Below are positions 6,808 through 62,217 of a DNA stretch of 64,000 bases, piece after piece. The stretch comes from a virus. Where the stretch lies: IMG/VR virus record IMGVR_UViG_3300044645_001738, positions 19,978-83,977 of that record. One strand, 5' to 3'. The stretch's first letter is position 1. Every line of letters starts with the position of its first letter. The position numbers were made by a program, and so were the translations under genes. The notes beneath the pieces are model-generated. The model was not told the DNA's origin and did not search any database. It was given only the letters and a program-made list of their open reading frames with translations.

Positions 6808-8142
6808 ATGATTATCCGTTATATCAATGATTATGGTGATGGAACTTCGGGATATGCAGATTACGGTTCTGGAATTGTCGTAACCACTGCAAGTGGTCAG
6901 CCAATTGAAGTAACCAGTACGTCCAGTGGGGTGGTTAACATCCAGCCTGCAGGCGTTGCTTCTGATGCCTTTGGTCGATTGCGTTCTTCCACACCCTTAA
7001 CACTGTTTGATTCCAGCCATCGTTATAAAGATAATGGTCTGTGGACTACAACCAGTGGTGTCGGTGGCACTACAGCATTTAACGCTAATGCTGGACTTGT
7101 AGACCTCAACGTCACAACAACATCTGGCTCTGAAATCATCAGGGAAACAACAAAGGTGTTTGCGTATCAACCAGGCAAGTCCTTGTTGGTGATGTCAACC
7201 TTTGTGATGAACGCATTCAAGACTGGGTTGCGTCAACGGGTTGGCTACTACGGCGCCGACAATGGCATCTATATAGAAAAAGATGGGACCAGTGCGGCAA
7301 CATTTGTTGAGCGCAGTCTTGTAACTGGTTCTGTAACTGAAACCAGAGTTGCTCAATCGAATTGGAATATTGACAAGCTTGATGGTACAGGCGTATCTGG
7401 TATTACGCTTGACCTAACTAAAGCTCAAATCCTGTTCATGGATATTGAGTGGCTGGGTCTTGGTACTGTACGGGTAGGTTTTGTTATTGACGGTAAGTTA
7501 ATTCATTGTCATTCATTCCATCATGCCAACTTAATTACATCTACTTACATCACAACCGCATCGTTACCTTTACGTTATGAAATTAGAAATACTGCTGCTA
7601 CTGCAAGTAGCAGTACACTGAAACAAATTTGTTCAAGTGTTATTTCAGAAGGTGGCTATGAGTTACGTGGCCTCCAGCAAGCCATTGGCACTACAATTAC
7701 TGCACCTTATAGTCTGACTACGGCTGGCACATTTTATCCAGTGATTTCGCTGCGGTTAAAAACAACGGCGCTTGATGCAATTGTCATCTTGACCGCCATC
7801 TCAATTATGTCGGCAGCAGGTACTGCAAACTATGTGTGGCGCGTGGTAGCCAGTGCAACCACTACTGCTGGTACTTGGGTAAGTGCAGGTGCTGACTCTG
7901 CCGTGGAATACAACTTAACTGGTACTGCAACTACGGGCGGACGCGTTCTTGCTCAAGGATATTTTGCTGGCAGCAACCAATCCAGTACTACAATCGACAT
8001 CTTGAAAGAAGCATTGTTTAAATTTCAGTTAGAGCGTAATGGTTTAACTGGTACTCCTTATGAGTTGTCACTTGTTTTGGCTGCTAGTGCAAACACATCA
8101 ACTGTGCATGCTGCATTGGATTGGGAAGAAATCTCAAGATAA
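6808..8142 (+). CDS. Putative virion structural protein
   Basis: A 444-residue protein when started at ATG 6808; the frame is open from 6757. It is rich in Thr, Ser, Ala and Gly with beta-strand character and few Cys or charged clusters. The stretches SDAFGRLRSSTPLTLFDSSH and ETTKVFAYQPGKSLLVMSTF recall a structural protein seen repeatedly in uncultured marine and freshwater phages, often called a head or fibre protein. It lies far from the other structural genes, on the opposite strand. The exact role is unknown. Confidence 0.65.
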   Translation: MIIRYINDYGDGTSGYADYGSGIVVTTASGQPIEVTSTSSGVVNIQPAGVASDAFGRLRSSTPLTLFDSSHRYKDNGLWTTTSGVGGTTAFNANAGLVDLNVTTTSGSEIIRETTKVFAYQPGKSLLVMSTFVMNAFKTGLRQRVGYYGADNGIYIEKDGTSAATFVERSLVTGSVTETRVAQSNWNIDKLDGTGVSGITLDLTKAQILFMDIEWLGLGTVRVGFVIDGKLIHCHSFHHANLITSTYITTASLPLRYEIRNTAATASSSTLKQICSSVISEGGYELRGLQQAIGTTITAPYSLTTAGTFYPVISLRLKTTALDAIVILTAISIMSAAGTANYVWRVVASATTTAGTWVSAGADSAVEYNLTGTATTGGRVLAQGYFAGSNQSSTTIDILKEALFKFQLERNGLTGTPYELSLVLAASANTSTVHAALDWEEISR

Positions 8143-8163
8143 GCCGTTGAGGTATTGACGGCT
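8142..8163 (+). other. Intergenic hairpin
   Basis: AGCCGT and ACGGCT form a 6-bp inverted repeat around a 10-base loop directly after the stop codon of the upstream gene. There is no T run, so a simple intrinsic terminator is unlikely. It may mark an RNA-processing or stabilising hairpin before the Dps-like gene. Confidence 0.3.
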
Positions 8164-8191
8164 GATAAACTAGAACTATTGATAAGTAACC

Positions 8192-8746
8192 ATGTATACT
8201 CCTGCCCCTCAACAGTACCAGGCTGCGGAAACTCCTCAGGCACAACCTGTTCCTCGGCCCCAGGACAAGCCTAAGGCTCCCGCTAAATCCAAGGCTGGTG
8301 GTGATGTGGGTGCATTCATCCAGCAGTGCATTTCACTTTGCGCTTACCTCAAGGAACTTGAGACTCAATCACATTTGATTCATCTCAACTACGAGGGATC
8401 AAACTTCCTTGGGGTCCACGCATTCCTGAAGGATCAATACGAGGCTCACCTAGAACAGTTTGATACCCTTGCTGAGTTTGTTCGCAGCATGGACTACCTG
8501 ATGCCAATGTGTGGCTGTGGTCTTAAAGATGCTGCTCCTCCCATGCAGGCAGTGACTTCCTACAAGGGCGCTGACATGCTTGGCGTGTACTACAAGAACC
8601 TTGAGGAGCTGGGCATGAAAGCCAAGAAGCTTGAGCCTGTAGCACAAAAGGTTGGGGCAATTGACATCCAGAACTACATGGCTGATCTTGTTGGCCAGGC
8701 ATTTAAAGCTGCTTGGTTTGTTAAAGCGGTACTTAGGTCTTCTTGA
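8192..8746 (+). CDS. Dps-like ferritin-fold protein
   Basis: A 184-residue protein with a Pro/Lys-rich tail (residues 1-38) and a four-helix ferritin-like domain. Residues 64-95 follow the Dps pattern: H64, then H76 twelve residues later, then D91 and E95 in DTLAE, all at the spacing of the Dps dinuclear iron site. The fifth usual ligand (Asp four residues after the second His) is K80, with D81 next to it. Dps proteins oxidise and store iron and shield DNA from peroxide. A Cys pair (MCGCG) follows. It would protect phage DNA or iron balance in the host, or be packaged in the particle; these roles are inferred. Confidence 0.65.
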   Translation: MYTPAPQQYQAAETPQAQPVPRPQDKPKAPAKSKAGGDVGAFIQQCISLCAYLKELETQSHLIHLNYEGSNFLGVHAFLKDQYEAHLEQFDTLAEFVRSMDYLMPMCGCGLKDAAPPMQAVTSYKGADMLGVYYKNLEELGMKAKKLEPVAQKVGAIDIQNYMADLVGQAFKAAWFVKAVLRSS

Positions 8747-48945: not shown

Positions 48946-50109
48946 TCAGATGTTACCGTCATCTTGCACGAAGCTGAACGCGGTGGTCACAAAGTCCTTG
49001 TTCAGGATTTCAAAACCGGCGTACAGTTGCCAAATAAGAATGATGAAACGGCTGAAATCGTCGTTGTTGTTGATGAGCACCTGGGCGTTCGGGCCACCGA
49101 TACCAACGCCAATCGCTTGAGGACCGAAGAAGTAACCTTGAGCGGCTTCTTTCACGTTATAGGTAGAACCACCGTCAAAGGAAGTGCTGATGCTCTTGAT
49201 CGGGAAGTTGGTGGATTCGAAGAACTTAACGCCTTCAAACTGCACACCAGTAGGCATAACAGGTTCGCCAGCCAGGAAGTAGGCTTGACCGGCCTGGGGG
49301 CCTTGGTAGAAGCTGGCGTTGTTAGGCAGCATGGGGTTGCCCATGTACATGCCTTGACCAGGATTACCAGCGTAACGGGCGATCTCACGGAAGTCAGGGT
49401 CACGACGCAGGTGCATCATGAACGTGGGATCGCAAATACAACGATACAGACCATCGGCATAGGTCGGAACGTTGCGCTTGCGCAGGTCCTTAACAACGGT
49501 CAGCAGGTCAGTACGCACCTGGAACTGCTGCAGGTCAGCGGTGTATTCAGTACCAGTGTAGGAAATACGACCGGAAGAATCCTTAACCTTGTTACCAGCG
49601 AAGTAGTAACCGCCTTGAGTTGTAGAGGCTGCACCGTTGGCTTCAGCTTTGGACAGTTCATCAATGAACACGCGGTCACGCCACCGGCGATAGTCGTCAA
49701 GCAGCGTCAGGCTACCGATCGACTGGTGGAACATATTCAGGTTGCCGGTATCCAGCAGCATGCGCTGAGCGGTAACCAGAGTTTCGCGAGCAATCTTGAA
49801 TGTGCTAGGCTGAGTCGGGTCGCCCGGATCCGCAGGACCCGTGTACTCCTTAAGCACCACCAGAACTTTCTCTTTGGTGATGTTACGGCTGTTAGCGGTA
49901 CCGATCGTTTGGTCAGCAATACGCTCACGGCTGTCCTTAGTACCAGGGGTACCCCAGAACTTGTAGCGGTCCAACTGAACGGTTTGACCAGGCTGACGTG
50001 TGAAGTCGTGGACAACCACGGGCTCCACAGCCATCTCAGCGATGTACGCAGGGTGGGGACGATAAAGTTCCGCACCTAAAATCTTTGGAAAGTCGTTATC
50101 AATAAACAC
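48946..50109 (-). CDS. Major capsid protein (candidate)
   Basis: A 387-residue protein encoded by a gene with strong GGAGG ten bases before the GTG start at 50109. Location after portal and scaffold genes, the length, and a fold-like mix (GTKDSRERIADQTIG, FYQGPQAGQAYFLAGE) are typical of an HK97-type major capsid protein. No direct family match was checked. A short hairpin lies upstream of it. Confidence 0.75.
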   Translation of the reverse strand: MFIDNDFPKILGAELYRPHPAYIAEMAVEPVVVHDFTRQPGQTVQLDRYKFWGTPGTKDSRERIADQTIGTANSRNITKEKVLVVLKEYTGPADPGDPTQPSTFKIARETLVTAQRMLLDTGNLNMFHQSIGSLTLLDDYRRWRDRVFIDELSKAEANGAASTTQGGYYFAGNKVKDSSGRISYTGTEYTADLQQFQVRTDLLTVVKDLRKRNVPTYADGLYRCICDPTFMMHLRRDPDFREIARYAGNPGQGMYMGNPMLPNNASFYQGPQAGQAYFLAGEPVMPTGVQFEGVKFFESTNFPIKSISTSFDGGSTYNVKEAAQGYFFGPQAIGVGIGGPNAQVLINNNDDFSRFIILIWQLYAGFEILNKDFVTTAFSFVQDDGNI

Positions 50110-50160
50110 TTTGTTTTATCCTCCAGTGTCGCAGGAAGTGTGTTGTCAGGTGAAAGATTC

Positions 50161-50176
50161 AGACATGATTATGTCT
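50161..50176. other. Hairpin upstream of the capsid gene
   Basis: AGACAT and ATGTCT form a perfect 6-bp inverted repeat around GATT in the leader of the capsid gene. It may influence mRNA stability or processing; no T run is present. Confidence 0.35.
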
Positions 50177-50228
50177 TATCTAACACAAATTTTAGCAGCC
50201 GATAATTTATTTAATTACCGGCATTAAA

Positions 50229-51215
50229 TCATTCCATTACAAACAGTTTGTTTGCAACGGTTTGAGGCTGAGCTTGGTTCAGGACGCGCCAGGCATTCTG
50301 AGGATCGCGATTCATCATCTCGCCAAAAGTGCCCCAGAAATTCTCAGGTGCTTGCGGAGCAGCAGCTGTCGGGGGAGCAGGGAAGTTGCCAGCTTGGAAC
50401 TGACCAATCGACTGGGTCGGATAACCGCGTGTCTCAAGTTCCTGCTCGTTTTCGTACACAGGGTACGGACCTTCAGGACCAAAGAACTTAAGCGTGTAAT
50501 CGCTCAGAACATCGGGATTGGTAAGGATCTCGTTGTAGGCAAGATTCTCTTGATGCTCGTTAACAGCGAAATTAGCGTAACCCTTGATGGTATCAGCGGC
50601 GCGGTTTCCCCACGCGACGGCGCTGTCCAGCATTTGCTCCAGGTTTAGAGCGTAGTTGTTCAGCACTGCCGGAGCTTCGATCCCGAACGCGTCCATCACG
50701 TACCGACTGTCCTGGCTCATTCCCAGGAGGTCCGCCATTTGGCTTGCCGCCTCCTGCAAGGATTGATTGGAGGAGGTTGGGGAATAGCTGGGCGAGTATG
50801 CCTGGTTGGGAGACCAAGTCTGCGGAGCCGATTGTTGCGTAGCTTGGCTGCTGTACTGTCCGTAATTGGCCGGGGTATACGCCGTCGTCGGCTGCGAGGG
50901 TTGACCCTGGAACGGGGATTGGACTGGTGCGCTCAGCAGATTCACCACCTTGTTGAACGCCGATTCCCAGGGATTCCCCGCCGAGTCCGCCGCCGGTTGG
51001 GATTGGGGGGCGTACTGAGTAGGGCTGGATTGGTAGCTGGGGGCTGCCTGAGGTACCGCTTGGGGGTAACTGGTACCCACCTGATACGCCACCGGAGCCG
51101 GAGCCTGGTAGCTGGCCGGAGCTGCTTGCGGTGCTGCCACCACGTAGCTGCTCGGCGCGACGGCCACTGGTGCTTGGCTCGTCTGTGGGATCGATTGGAC
51201 GGTAGCGTCCTGCAT
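50229..51215 (-). CDS. Scaffold-like protein
   Basis: A 328-residue protein. The first 180 residues are Gln, Pro, Ala and Ser-rich (VAAPQAAPASYQAPAPVAYQ), then a helical part with NPWESAFNKVVNLL and a second helical stretch (LEQMLDSAVAWGNRAADTIK). Pro/Gln-rich proteins with helical ends, encoded between portal and capsid genes, are typical scaffolds. The start at ATG 51215 has AAAAGGAG seven bases upstream. The gene overlaps the end of the portal gene by 623 bases. Confidence 0.75.
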   Translation of the reverse strand: MQDATVQSIPQTSQAPVAVAPSSYVVAAPQAAPASYQAPAPVAYQVGTSYPQAVPQAAPSYQSSPTQYAPQSQPAADSAGNPWESAFNKVVNLLSAPVQSPFQGQPSQPTTAYTPANYGQYSSQATQQSAPQTWSPNQAYSPSYSPTSSNQSLQEAASQMADLLGMSQDSRYVMDAFGIEAPAVLNNYALNLEQMLDSAVAWGNRAADTIKGYANFAVNEHQENLAYNEILTNPDVLSDYTLKFFGPEGPYPVYENEQELETRGYPTQSIGQFQAGNFPAPPTAAAPQAPENFWGTFGEMMNRDPQNAWRVLNQAQPQTVANKLFVME

Positions 51216-52965
51216 AACTCATCTCCTTTTGTAAAGCTTCTAAAGTGCGATATAGATAGGGTGTTAAATCTAATCGCGGGTCCGCAGCCATCGGTAAATC
51301 CGGTGATTGCGGATGGGGAGTTTGCATCATTCCCCCCACAAGGCGAGCAAATTGAGAGTATGCACCCTGCAATTCATTCACCATTCTGAACGGAAACCCA
51401 GATAACATCTCGGCCCGTTCCTCATCCGTCTTGGACGGGAAGAGGTATTTCAGTGCCTCAATGCTATCAACACCTAACTCCTGTAAGTTGCGTACCACGA
51501 TGGAGTTGTTCAGGATGTCTTGAGTGGAATCCTCATAAACAGGTCCAAGCCAACGCCACTGCATGGTCACATCGCCATCTGGAATCAAACCAGAAACACC
51601 GGGCGGAATCTGCTGCGTTTGAAGGCAAGCCATCATCAACTGCTTGACCTGATCATCAAATGCACTCATGGCATCGTTGTACGCTGCCAAGTCTTCCGCA
51701 CTAGATTCCTCTGGGAGATCCAGGGGTTTTTCTAATCCTGCAGCAGCGGCCAGCGTCTCCCTGAACAGACGTTCTTCCTGGTAGATGATCAGTTCAAAAC
51801 AACGGCAAATACCGTAAGTGTAAATAGCGATTGCCTTTTTCTTGGACGTGGCAGAAACACGACCAAACAGTGACTTGTACTCAGTTGCAGTCACGCCTGC
51901 AGAAATTGACAGTTCGTCAACGCCACCCAGGGCAGTGCGAATCTCTTCTCGGTACTGACGTGCGAAAGAATTCTGGTCGCCAGTGATGGCATCAGGAACA
52001 ATGTAACCAACACGGTCGTTTGGTTCCAGGTTTGCAATGACGCGTGGAACTCTGATCTGTCCGTCAATACCACGGTGAATGGGATCAGCCTTGAATCGGG
52101 ATTGACTCAGTCCACTGGGACCACTGAACCCAGAGTTAGCTGCGATAGAAGGACGCTGGACAACGTTCTCGCCACCGGCCTCCATAAGGTCAGTCTTGGG
52201 CCTGGAGGAAAGAAGCGTGGGGTTACCAAAGAACTGCACGTTCTTACGCATGGTACGAACCATTTCATCATGCGTACAGATGTGATTGGCTAACGCTTCA
52301 AATTCACCAACACCTTCAGTAGAGAAACCCTTGACGTTGTGGAAAATTTCTACGCAAGGAATAAAGCCCAGCGTATTTTTGAACGTTTTTGTCCTACCGA
52401 AATTTGCTTGGTAGTTGCTATCAAACGACAGCTCGCCTTCCGAGTGCGTTTCTTCAATCGTTTTGCGTTTGATGGAAAGGCGGATGTAACGCTTTGCACC
52501 GCCCCGCCCCATGGTGGCCGGACCACTTAAACTTGCGGAATCAATGTCCTGCTGGTAACCAAACCCGTTCTTGACCTTGTAGCTGTAAATAATTACAACT
52601 TCATCAAGCTCGCCATCAATGTTGTAATAGCTACGATATTCGTGCTTACGAAAGTAGTAAAGACGATAGTTGTTCTGAGTTGGACGGATGTAAAGAAGAC
52701 CTTGCCCATCACAAAGTGAATAATCCCAGATTGAATCGAAGCGGATGTCGAGAGAGTTGTATTTGATTACACGGTCAATAAAGTCTTTGCGCTGATTACC
52801 AAAGTTATCTTGCACAGGAAAAAACTCGACACCCTGGCGGATGCCGAATAATTTCATCTGCGCCAGGTGTGAAGCTACGACGCCAGTGTCAATCATTGAC
52901 CCGCCGTCTTTTTCAAGATACGAGTCAATAATTTCCTTGAGTCTAGACTTAGCGTCGACGGCCAT
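50593..52965 (-). CDS. Portal protein
   Basis: A 790-residue protein. The N-terminal 580 residues have portal character: alternate helix and strand, AGVTATEYKSLFGRVSATSK in the core and helices rich in Arg and Glu. Portal rings form the dodecameric channel for DNA entry and exit. Location downstream of large terminase and upstream of scaffold fits. The last 207 codons are low-complexity (GGSTASSSGQLPGSGSGG) and share DNA with the scaffold gene in a different frame, so the true C-terminus is uncertain. Confidence 0.8.
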   Translation of the reverse strand: MAVDAKSRLKEIIDSYLEKDGGSMIDTGVVASHLAQMKLFGIRQGVEFFPVQDNFGNQRKDFIDRVIKYNSLDIRFDSIWDYSLCDGQGLLYIRPTQNNYRLYYFRKHEYRSYYNIDGELDEVVIIYSYKVKNGFGYQQDIDSASLSGPATMGRGGAKRYIRLSIKRKTIEETHSEGELSFDSNYQANFGRTKTFKNTLGFIPCVEIFHNVKGFSTEGVGEFEALANHICTHDEMVRTMRKNVQFFGNPTLLSSRPKTDLMEAGGENVVQRPSIAANSGFSGPSGLSQSRFKADPIHRGIDGQIRVPRVIANLEPNDRVGYIVPDAITGDQNSFARQYREEIRTALGGVDELSISAGVTATEYKSLFGRVSATSKKKAIAIYTYGICRCFELIIYQEERLFRETLAAAAGLEKPLDLPEESSAEDLAAYNDAMSAFDDQVKQLMMACLQTQQIPPGVSGLIPDGDVTMQWRWLGPVYEDSTQDILNNSIVVRNLQELGVDSIEALKYLFPSKTDEERAEMLSGFPFRMVNELQGAYSQFARLVGGMMQTPHPQSPDLPMAADPRLDLTPYLYRTLEALQKEMSYAGRYRPIDPTDEPSTSGRRAEQLRGGSTASSSGQLPGSGSGGVSGGYQLPPSGTSGSPQLPIQPYSVRPPIPTGGGLGGESLGIGVQQGGESAERTSPIPVPGSTLAADDGVYPGQLRTVQQPSYATIGSADLVSQPGILAQLFPNLLQSILAGGGKPNGGPPGNEPGQSVRDGRVRDRSSGSAEQLRSKPGANAGQRRRVGKPRR

Positions 52966-53844: not shown

Positions 53845-55374
53845 TCAGTAATCAAGGTGAAGCTGTCCTTTTCTTGCTAATCCAGTAACAAGCCAGACGA
53901 GAGCGTCAACACAATCGTCGTGACTACTTACGCCAAAGTTGGTAAGCTCTTCAAACATATTGGTGAAATTACGAAAACGATTGAAGATGATCTTGCGGTC
54001 CTCAAACATACCCATAATGCCACGGAAGCGAGCCAACTTATCTGCCCTGAAACCTTTGACGGGATGCCAAATCAAATTGTAAAGACCTTCATTGTTCAAG
54101 CAAACACGTTTGAAGTCTGCCTCCAGGGATGCCTGGTACTGTACGGCCTCACTCCAAATGTCGCACGTTGAATAGCTGGGGTAATACAAACCGCTTTGTT
54201 CGTCTTTGGCAATCACTGACCAATCATTCAACAACTCCTTGAGGGCATCAAGTTTTTCAAGGTTACCCATGACGCGAATACGTCGGTAATCAATGATATG
54301 AATGCGGTCGCCAATGCGACCACCAAGAATCATAACCGTGTAATCGTTTTTCTCTTTAGTGCCAGCGGAGAGGTCAACCCCAACTCCAAGGGCGTCAAAC
54401 TCCGTTGCAATTTCCGCTTTTACAATCAACTCCGGAGCCAACGAAAGTTCGTTCTGCCGGATGACTTGATTCATGTACTGGAACGAGAAAGCAATTGGTG
54501 CCTGCCGTTTTTTCTCCTTCAGGTAATCCAATGACCACATGTCCGGCCAATACGATTCCTCTTCGCCAGTGATGGGATTGTTTTGAATTGCTGAAAGGAT
54601 AATCTGTTGCCAGTTGTTTTGTTCGTTGAATGTTGTGGAGTGAATGTCATCGTGTCTGAAGCGAGTACCAAGACAGATTGCTCGTGCACCTTCAAACATG
54701 GTGGGTGCAATCACAGCATTCCAGTTGTCCTGCATCTGTTTCCTGATGTCAGGGTTGGCAATATCTGCGGCTGACTTAATGGCGTCATCAATCATGACCA
54801 AGTGCGAACGCTTGGAAGTCACCGAACCCTTGAGGCCTGCTGCGCAAAGCGTAAACTGTTCGTCACCTGTTACGTCAATGCCAGCAAACTTGTGATCAAT
54901 TGACCAGTACTCATTACTGGTGGCGTTCTTCAGAAGGCGAACTTTAGGGAAAACCTCTTGGTATCGTTTGCTTTCAATGATGCGTTTGATGGTGGAAGAT
55001 TTGGAACGAGCAATGTCAACCGTATAGGACAGATACAGAATCTGCAGTGGCAGCCCTGCGTGCGTGTGGATGCCAATGGCCCACGCCGTAAGCAGACCCA
55101 ACACTGTGGACTTGGCAGAACCCCTGGGCGCCAGGAGATCCACATTGGGACCAGCGATCTTAATGAGGCAACTGCTATCCTCCTCTGTGACGAAGTGTCG
55201 ATGCCAGTTGAGGTGATGAGCAGCCGGTGGTTTATCTGCTACGTATTCACAGAAGAAGCCAAAATCTTCCTGGGCTTTCTTCAGTGCTTCTGCGTTACGT
55301 GGCTTGCGTATTTGCTGTCTGCGTGCGGCGGCTTGAGCATTGCGGCGGTAAGCAAGATGCGTATAGCTTGGCAC
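53845..55374 (-). CDS. terL: Large terminase subunit
   Basis: A 509-residue protein with the full terminase pattern. The ATPase has Walker A APRGSAKST at 82-90 and Walker B HLVMIDDA at 191-198. The RNase H-like nuclease has GVGVDLSAG at about 331-338, with Asp334, and DDCVDALVW near the end. It cuts the DNA concatemer and pumps it into the head. The portal, scaffold and capsid genes follow in order on the same strand. Confidence 0.92.
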   Translation of the reverse strand: MPSYTHLAYRRNAQAAARRQQIRKPRNAEALKKAQEDFGFFCEYVADKPPAAHHLNWHRHFVTEEDSSCLIKIAGPNVDLLAPRGSAKSTVLGLLTAWAIGIHTHAGLPLQILYLSYTVDIARSKSSTIKRIIESKRYQEVFPKVRLLKNATSNEYWSIDHKFAGIDVTGDEQFTLCAAGLKGSVTSKRSHLVMIDDAIKSAADIANPDIRKQMQDNWNAVIAPTMFEGARAICLGTRFRHDDIHSTTFNEQNNWQQIILSAIQNNPITGEEESYWPDMWSLDYLKEKKRQAPIAFSFQYMNQVIRQNELSLAPELIVKAEIATEFDALGVGVDLSAGTKEKNDYTVMILGGRIGDRIHIIDYRRIRVMGNLEKLDALKELLNDWSVIAKDEQSGLYYPSYSTCDIWSEAVQYQASLEADFKRVCLNNEGLYNLIWHPVKGFRADKLARFRGIMGMFEDRKIIFNRFRNFTNMFEELTNFGVSSHDDCVDALVWLVTGLARKGQLHLDY

Positions 55375-60691: not shown

Positions 60692-61302
60692 CACATTGCC
60701 CCCCTGGTCAGTGCATATGGATCAATGGCGCCACGGAAAAGACTTGATTCGACGCCTTGCATTTGGAACATCGTCCCAGGTGATAATGCTTCTTGGCTTC
60801 CAGGATTCATTGCTTGGCGCTGCATTAATTGTTGTTCAGCAGTTGCCGTTTGATCCATTACAACTGGTTCTGCAGATAGCTGTTGAAGTTCCTGTTGAGA
60901 TAAACCTGCAATTTGACTGGAAGCAAAAATAGGTTCCACAAGCATTGGTGCTGCAATCGATGTACCAATCATCAATGCAGACTGAGGACCACTTGGTCGA
61001 TATTCTTGATGGCTAACCTTGCTACCCGGTGGAGTAACGGTGTAGTATTTACCCGCAAGCTTGGGATTGATTTTACCAAGTTGCTTGGCGGCACCCGCAC
61101 TTAACAGGGCATCAGCTGCGCCAACCGCAAGTCCTGCAACCGGATTGCCTGTAAACATTGCAGTGGATGCACCTGACCACAAACCGCCGAGCGCAGAATG
61201 TCCCAACAATTCTTTGCCGCCACCAGCGAGACGTTGCTGGATAACAGGGGCGTTTTTAACACCTTGCAATGCAGCCCCAATTCTTCCAGCTAATCCCAAC
61301 AT
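60691..61302 (-). CDS. Hydrophobic internal virion protein
   Basis: A 203-residue protein with Ala/Gly-rich hydrophobic stretches (GGLWSGASTAMFTGNPVAGL and LMIGTSIAAPMLVEPIFAS) and a Gln-rich C-terminal part (AEQQLMQRQAMNPG). It overlaps the next gene by one base, so both are probably co-expressed. It likely interacts with membrane in DNA entry; inferred. Confidence 0.6.
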   Translation of the reverse strand: MLGLAGRIGAALQGVKNAPVIQQRLAGGGKELLGHSALGGLWSGASTAMFTGNPVAGLAVGAADALLSAGAAKQLGKINPKLAGKYYTVTPPGSKVSHQEYRPSGPQSALMIGTSIAAPMLVEPIFASSQIAGLSQQELQQLSAEPVVMDQTATAEQQLMQRQAMNPGSQEALSPGTMFQMQGVESSLFRGAIDPYALTRGAM

Positions 61303-61336
61303 TTTTATACTTCTTATTTGCTTATTTTACGATCAG

Positions 61337-61990
61337 TTATTTAAGTGTTTTGCCGGGGGAGGTATTTGTTTCCACTGATTTTTCGTCGACAGTGTCCTCG
61401 CCTTCTTTTTCTTCCTCCTTGACCGGCATTGATTTCATGACGCCTTTACGATCAAGAAGTTGAGCAATTGACGGTTTATCCTCAACCTCGTTCTCCGCAC
61501 GTTTTTCTGCCATTGCCATTAAGTATCCATTGGGATCCGGATTACGCATCCGTGGCATTGGATTCTTAGCGACCTTACTTGGATTTAATGTTGGACTAAG
61601 TTTGTATGCTTCAATCCATTGAGGATTAAAATCAGGTTGGTCCTGGGGGCGCTGCGCAGTTCTTGGTCGACCCTCTTCAAAATCGTAAGCAGTAGGACGA
61701 TCAAACGTCCCTAGGCCAAACATGTCATATGCTTCGGTTACTTTACTGTTGTCATCAAAGAATGGTGTATTACCAACAAAATCAAGATCCGGGTTTAAGG
61801 TGATCTTACGCGTCATGGCGCGACGCATTAAATCCTGTTGACCAAACCTTGATGGGTTCCAGGGATACTGACCGGTCTCCGCTTCGGAGCGAAACAAGTC
61901 GTCGAAATTTAATCGTTTGGCGATTTCACCACGGCGATTAAATGGGTTTTGAATGTAACGACCTAGATCAAGCCTGTCATCTTTTGCCAT
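61337..61990 (-). CDS. Hypothetical virion-region protein
   Basis: A 217-residue protein (AKDDRLDLGRYIQNPFNRRG) with a charged, Pro- and Asn-rich middle and an acidic C-terminus (VKEEEKEGEDTVDEKSVE). Probably disordered in part. It overlaps the next gene by one base. Function unknown. Confidence 0.58.
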   Translation of the reverse strand: MAKDDRLDLGRYIQNPFNRRGEIAKRLNFDDLFRSEAETGQYPWNPSRFGQQDLMRRAMTRKITLNPDLDFVGNTPFFDDNSKVTEAYDMFGLGTFDRPTAYDFEEGRPRTAQRPQDQPDFNPQWIEAYKLSPTLNPSKVAKNPMPRMRNPDPNGYLMAMAEKRAENEVEDKPSIAQLLDRKGVMKSMPVKEEEKEGEDTVDEKSVETNTSPGKTLK

Positions 61991-62217
61991 CAGCCCTCAG
62001 ATTTCTTCTGGTCTTTTTTCTTCTTTAATCCTACCAACGTTTGGCGAAGCCGTGCTTGCTTAACTGTTTTCTCATCGTACTTATCCGGATTGGAAAGAAC
62101 ATTTTCCTGGAGCTGAGCAGAAGTAATGCCTTTCTTTTTGGCTTTAGCTGTGAAGACGCCTTCCTTGATGTCAGCGCCTTGGATCCACTTTTTATCTTTC
62201 TTGTTTTTGTTAGTCAT
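61990..62217 (-). CDS. Small basic protein
   Basis: A 75-residue highly basic protein (TNKNKKDKKWIQGADIKEGV) with Lys-rich ends and a central helix. Possibly nucleic-acid binding. It overlaps its neighbours by one and four bases. No family is recognised. Confidence 0.55.
   Translation of the reverse strand: MTNKNKKDKKWIQGADIKEGVFTAKAKKKGITSAQLQENVLSNPDKYDEKTVKQARLRQTLVGLKKKKDQKKSEG

Follow-up and report, generated by a model that had tools for sequence, protein, structure and literature searches.

A conserved out-of-frame overlap between the portal gene and a scaffold-like gene in phages related to S-EIV1, with substitution evidence of purifying selection in both frames

In a 64,000-nt stretch of viral DNA (the window), part of an 83,977-bp virus record, the gene for a portal protein and the gene for a scaffold-like protein overlap in different reading frames for exactly 623 nt. 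The start of the scaffold-like gene lies 1750 nt inside the portal gene, which places it in the portal +1 frame. Judged from substitution patterns among relatives, both frames of the overlap are shown to be under purifying selection in three clades. We consider it highly probable that these observations jointly reflect an old, genuine dual-coding overlap with an internal start, in which both frames are selected and the portal end forms a putative arm.

Gene order, relatives and the two products

On the minus strand of the window the genes run from terminase large subunit through portal and scaffold-like gene to major head protein. In good agreement with the earlier note, which had described a 623-nt out-of-frame overlap with both frames open, the ORF coordinates are as follows.

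53845-55374, minus: terminase large subunit gene, upstream (Pfam Terminase_6C, 5.8e-9; phrog_38, 1.4e-75)
50593-52965, minus: portal protein gene, 790 aa (ORF; phrog_64; Foldseek)
50229-51215, minus: scaffold-like protein gene, 328 aa (ORF between the portal and major head protein genes)
50593-51215, minus: dual-coding overlap of the portal C-terminal tail and, in the +1 frame, the scaffold N-terminal half (open and under constraint in each frame across three clades)
48946-50109, minus: major head protein gene, next downstream of the scaffold-like gene (phrog_1357, E 1.9e-14)

An antisense ORF of 371 aa (48964-50079, plus strand) lies over the major head gene and is probably a chance one, since only 23% of 151 relatives keep it open.

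For comparison, 334 loci were reduced to 209 distinct overlaps belonging to clades A and B. The 170 full-length members comprise 108 of clade A, with portals at least 69% identical to that of the window, and 62 of clade B (53-55% identical). Portals of a third clade, C, are 43-48% identical to that of the window.

The assignment of 50593-52965 as a portal gene is backed by phrog_64, which 14 of 29 relatives match (best 6.8e-5), and by a Foldseek search with a structure model of low confidence (mean pLDDT 36), in which the best 28 PDB matches are all phage portals or portal-tail complexes (E down to 2.2e-4). The gene also has a portal-like position between the terminase and capsid genes. The assignment of the second gene is weaker. 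Its product is presumably a capsid scaffold, given its position, predicted helices, acidity (net charge about -17 to -20) and disordered front, and a scaffold-like gene also lies between the portal and major capsid genes in Synechococcus phage S-EIV1 and in the related locus L155. The protein matched no Pfam or PHROG scaffold family, its model found no Foldseek match, and a profile search against the single sequence of T7 gp9 returned nothing; with no scaffold-family homology, we therefore claim only that it is 'scaffold-like'.

The shared DNA would encode a portal C-terminal tail of about 150-200 residues and the N-terminal half of the scaffold-like protein. The following parts can be distinguished.

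50926-51195, minus: Gly/Ser/Pro-rich linker, portal residues 591-680 (composition; predicted coil)
50761-50925, minus: conserved motif region ending ADLVSQPGILAQLFPNLL, portal residues 681-735 (portal-led constraint in clades A and B; invariant columns)
50752-50805, minus: predicted short hydrophobic helix, portal residues 721-738 (DSSP on the low-confidence model)
50596-50748, minus: basic C-terminal end, portal residues 740-790 (net charge; stop position varies by clade)
50934-50972, minus: conserved predicted helix, NPWESAFNKVV region, scaffold residues 82-94, inside the overlap (identity; low-confidence model)
50484-50759, minus: predicted helical core, scaffold residues 153-244, first third inside the overlap (low-confidence model)

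The portal tail is predicted to be mostly unstructured. Its linker, read in the other frame, is the scaffold front, with abundant Pro, Gln, Ala and Ser. Most of the motif region ending ADLVSQPGILAQLFPNLL is conserved in clades A and B, and the region is modelled, at low confidence, as a short helix; the hydrophobic helix is likewise conserved in these two clades and is not evident in clade C. The portal end carries a net charge of +7 in clade A and +2.6 in clade B (last 45 aa), and +6.2 in clade C (last 30). The portal stops of S-EIV1, L155, L105 and L108 fall about 20 codons earlier than that of the window, and since the stop position shifts by as much as about 20 codons among clade A members, the last portal residues appear dispensable. 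The low-confidence scaffold model shows disorder at the front, a long helix in the centre and three helices at the C-terminal end; helices lie at residues 181-232 and 293-324. Mean identity over scaffold residues 81-104 is 96% in clade A and 68% in clade B.

Conservation and selection in both frames

The overlap is a stable property of the relatives. In all 209 distinct clade A and B overlaps the second gene starts with ATG and is read in the +1 frame; the overlap lengths are 515-677 nt in all but one (L207) and differ by multiples of three throughout. In clade C, both frames are open as far as the contig reaches in 75 of 75 distinct sequences that contain the start site; in the 67 whose contigs suffice to show it, the scaffold frame runs well past the portal stop, and the overlap measures 443-521 nt in the 62 sequences used for rates. 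Across these 209 and 75 relatives the second gene starts at the same portal codon essentially always, and across the three clades the overlap spans about 440-680 nt. A similarity-based search of viral collections, genome contigs and 14 genomes, of a kind that could miss more distant relatives, found none without the overlap.

The earlier note had raised the possibility that the portal ends early in relatives. This was not borne out: L207 alone has an early portal-frame stop, a TAG where others have TAC, 11 nt from its contig end, and it is either a sequencing error or a real truncation. Two further apparent exceptions, L162 and L373, are contigs with what look like frameshifts in the portal/scaffold region and were treated as assembly artefacts.

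We consider it very unlikely that only the scaffold-like protein is real in the overlap, with the portal functionally ending at about residue 590 and its frame held open by scaffold composition. The low-complexity, predicted disordered portal tail with its variable end would fit such a reading, as would a scaffold front poor in the residues that give portal-frame stops (Lys/Arg/Asp/Glu make up 3-5% of it, versus 16-19% of the back half). However, with the scaffold residues held fixed and their synonymous codons drawn anew according to genome usage, none of 2000 trials kept the portal frame open (mean 8.9 stops). The reciprocal redrawing, with portal residues fixed, gave an open scaffold frame in 4.9% of trials. 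Among the 170 full-length relatives the overlap is free of stops in the portal and scaffold frames, whereas the third frame contains 6.1 on average and is closed in every case.

Substitution rates speak more directly to selection. Each possible change was classified by what it does in either frame, and the pairwise rates found in the overlap were set against those of single-frame neighbours, at a transition weight of 3. Changes silent in the scaffold frame that alter the portal are suppressed 2.4-2.8-fold in the overlap relative to scaffold-only sequence (0.306 versus 0.806 in clade A, 0.315 versus 0.885 in clade B, 0.328 versus 0.775 in clade C), again contrary to a scaffold-only overlap. Conversely, portal-silent changes that alter the scaffold are suppressed 3.5-5-fold relative to portal-only sequence (0.152 versus 0.793, 0.217 versus 0.815 and 0.242 versus 0.838 in clades A, B and C, respectively). 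The pairwise rates are not phylogenetically independent, and the result repeats in all three clades.

Scaffold-silent changes that would create a portal stop are 6-24 times too rare in the overlap (observed versus expected per pair: 0.12 versus 2.84 in clade A, 0.45 versus 2.81 in clade B and 0.19 versus 2.13 in clade C), and the same class in scaffold-only sequence occurs as expected (3.88 observed, 3.86 expected). For the +1 frame, the ratio in the overlap is 0.42 at transition weight 3 and 0.30 at weight 1; a pretend +1 frame in portal-only sequence gives 1.07-1.11 and 0.75-0.77, respectively. When the portal frame is judged by the simple ratio of the two classes that change the scaffold, the value in the overlap is only 0.65-0.87, and at weight 3 its interval extends to 1. 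However, the baseline of this ratio in scaffold-only sequence is about 2 (0.158/0.077), as the middle positions of scaffold codons change less often; for the portal frame we therefore relied on the scaffold-silent comparisons.

The constraint also changes hands along the overlap. In clades A and B it is scaffold-led over scaffold residues ~1-105 and portal-led around residues 119-150, the latter a further point against a scaffold-only reading; in clade A it is scaffold-led again past residue 153. The comparison of rates across relatives that the earlier note had proposed finds each frame constrained given the other in three clades. Its suggestion that the portal frame is only fortuitously open is contradicted, because the arrangement is conserved in three clades, stops are avoided and the constraint is frame-specific.

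Internal start signals of the scaffold-like gene

The start signals of the scaffold-like gene are embedded in portal codons.

51223-51230, minus: Shine-Dalgarno (SD) sequence AAAAGGAG of the scaffold-like gene, within the codons for portal Gln579-Lys580-Glu581 (best of 18; codons fixed)
51213-51215, minus: scaffold ATG, whose AT comes from portal Tyr584 (TAT) and whose G opens the Ala585 codon (TAT in 170 of 170)

As the earlier note had pointed out, the gene starts inside the portal gene behind a strong ribosome binding site, AAAAGGAG, seven bases before the ATG. With a predicted pairing of -11.0 kcal/mol, this start is the best among 18 internal out-of-frame ATGs. Portal Tyr584 is encoded by TAT in all 170 relatives, which preserves the internal scaffold ATG; elsewhere TAT accounts for 50% of Tyr codons, equal to TAC. 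Clade A encodes Lys580 by AAG in 106 of 106 sequences (38% elsewhere) and Glu581 by GAG in 108 of 108 (33% elsewhere). Clade B carries the codons AAA GAG GTA, which offer GAGGT instead of AAGGAG, with the portal residues Met-Ser changed to Val-Thr and a weaker predicted pairing (-7.2 versus -11.0 kcal/mol); we read this as the probable replacement of one ribosome-binding sequence by another. Clade C has weaker SD-like sequences, and two of its members (L384 and L562) have lost the ATG and have a GTG one codon downstream. From these conserved signals we infer that the scaffold-like protein is translated from its own SD and ATG buried in the portal codons. A second ATG in the scaffold frame, Met160 (50736-50738, minus strand), has a strong SD-like sequence (-10.5 kcal/mol) and could give rise to a shorter scaffold form; the alignment suggests that it is not conserved.

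Synechococcus phage S-EIV1 (KJ410740; portal AHV82224, second CDS AHV82225) is the one isolate found to have a related portal, which is 80% identical to that of the window. It has the same gene order, a +1 overlap of 554 nt, and an identical SD and start. In GenBank, however, both proteins are hypothetical and the overlap is unrecorded: the second gene is begun at codon 193, just past the portal stop, so that the scaffold is cut to 133 aa. Were this annotation correct, only the portal would be real in the overlap and the upstream scaffold frame would be fortuitously open, as it is in 4.9% of the redrawn portal sequences. We regard this as even less probable than a scaffold-only overlap, and we rejected the late start on substitution rates and preserved start signals: portal-silent, scaffold-changing changes show the 3.5-5-fold suppression given above, the upstream SD and ATG are preserved in three clades, and the two clade C members without the ATG have a GTG at the neighbouring codon.

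Where the S-EIV1 major head protein has its reading frame (about 385 aa, record 60859-62007; region L001 8248-9474, equal to KJ410740 60784-62010), the annotation gives two hypothetical proteins, of which one is on the opposite strand. S-EIV1 (L001 7733-8209) and L155 (~7938-8408) also contain, between the scaffold and major head protein genes, an ORF of about 160 aa that is rich in Gly and Ala; it is absent from window positions 50110-50228. The L155 terminase (L155 1598-3388) contains an intein-like insert, which that of the window lacks. The S-EIV1 terminase (AHV82220, L001 1544-4084) has 846 aa versus 509 aa in the window and may therefore also carry such an insert.

Just as improbable as the late start is a programmed frameshift in the overlap, with the open frames serving a portal-scaffold fusion. 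A single slip into the long +1 stretch would indeed yield one, but the scaffold has conserved start signals of its own that a fusion does not need, the portal stop region is variable, and by-eye inspection of the overlap start revealed no conserved slippery heptamer. Least probable of all is a DNA or RNA element (promoter, packaging signal or RNA structure) as the source of the constraint, which would account for the overlap-wide slowdown taken alone but not for a stop avoidance confined to two of the three frames, for change classes that differ by their effect on each protein, or for lengths that differ by multiples of three.

Origin, possible function and known systems

As to the relative age of the frames, the portal frame of the overlap matches the codon usage of the lineage more closely than the scaffold frame does in 105 of 108 clade A and 58 of 62 clade B sequences. 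This hints, weakly given the shared ancestry of the sequences and the mutual constraint of the frames, that the scaffold front may have been laid over a pre-existing portal tail. The earlier note had proposed a disordered portal tail created by overprinting; the disorder is supported by the low-confidence model, while codon usage points the opposite way as to the portal tail being the newly created part.

As for what a dual-coding overlap would do, the portal tail may be a flexible arm located on the side of the portal ring that faces the capsid; its basic end (with the hydrophobic helix in two clades) would contact the acidic scaffold or DNA. Portal and scaffold are likely co-translated from one message; being made together, they might meet early in procapsid assembly. 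The stronger proposal, that the overlap is an assembly device in which the portal tail and scaffold front bind, nucleate the procapsid at the portal and co-evolve both as DNA and as interface, we consider rather unlikely. In phage P22, portal-scaffold interactions are reported to drive portal assembly and incorporation, with the wing domain rather than a tail implicated (PMC13386823, PMC9320234, PMC12005531).

In T7, genes 8 (portal) and 9 (scaffold) likewise stand in the order portal, scaffold, capsid, and T7-type portals are among the Foldseek matches of the portal model. However, the T7 genes do not overlap, being separated by a 99-nt gap, and profiles searched against single T7 sequences detected no homology, the portal giving no match to gp8; T7 is too distant to polarise the order of events. 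Phage lambda provides a scaffold gene nested within another head gene, Nu3 within C, with an internal start in the same frame. Here the frames differ, so portal and scaffold share no residues.

Surveys (PMC7017920, PMC8903798) and a review (PMC8227390) of viral dual-coding genes likewise describe two selected proteins, biased composition and predicted disorder. As the earlier note had supposed, the length of the present overlap is unusual for structural genes: 84% of reported viral overlaps are shorter than 50 nt (PMC7017920), and in DNA viruses the per-genome mean overlap has a median of 15.6 nt (PMC8903798), whereas here about 440-680 nt are shared between two head genes and kept through deep divergence. 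A literature search covering few subscription papers found no portal-scaffold out-of-frame overlap. Dual-coding genes are a known phenomenon, of which we regard the overlap as a new case that is unusually long and well supported.

Long out-of-frame overlaps of two head genes are rarely documented in tailed dsDNA phages, and this one persists between portals that are only ~43% identical, with strong selection on each frame. Such preservation of two readings of one DNA stretch is rare among viruses whose DNA genomes are large. Its hundreds of natural variants make it a good test bed for how two proteins can share one sequence. For the widespread S-EIV1-related lineage, the analysis supplies candidates for the portal and scaffold proteins and corrects a truncated scaffold annotation. 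Finally, it raises the testable question of whether disordered portal tails may help to recruit scaffold.
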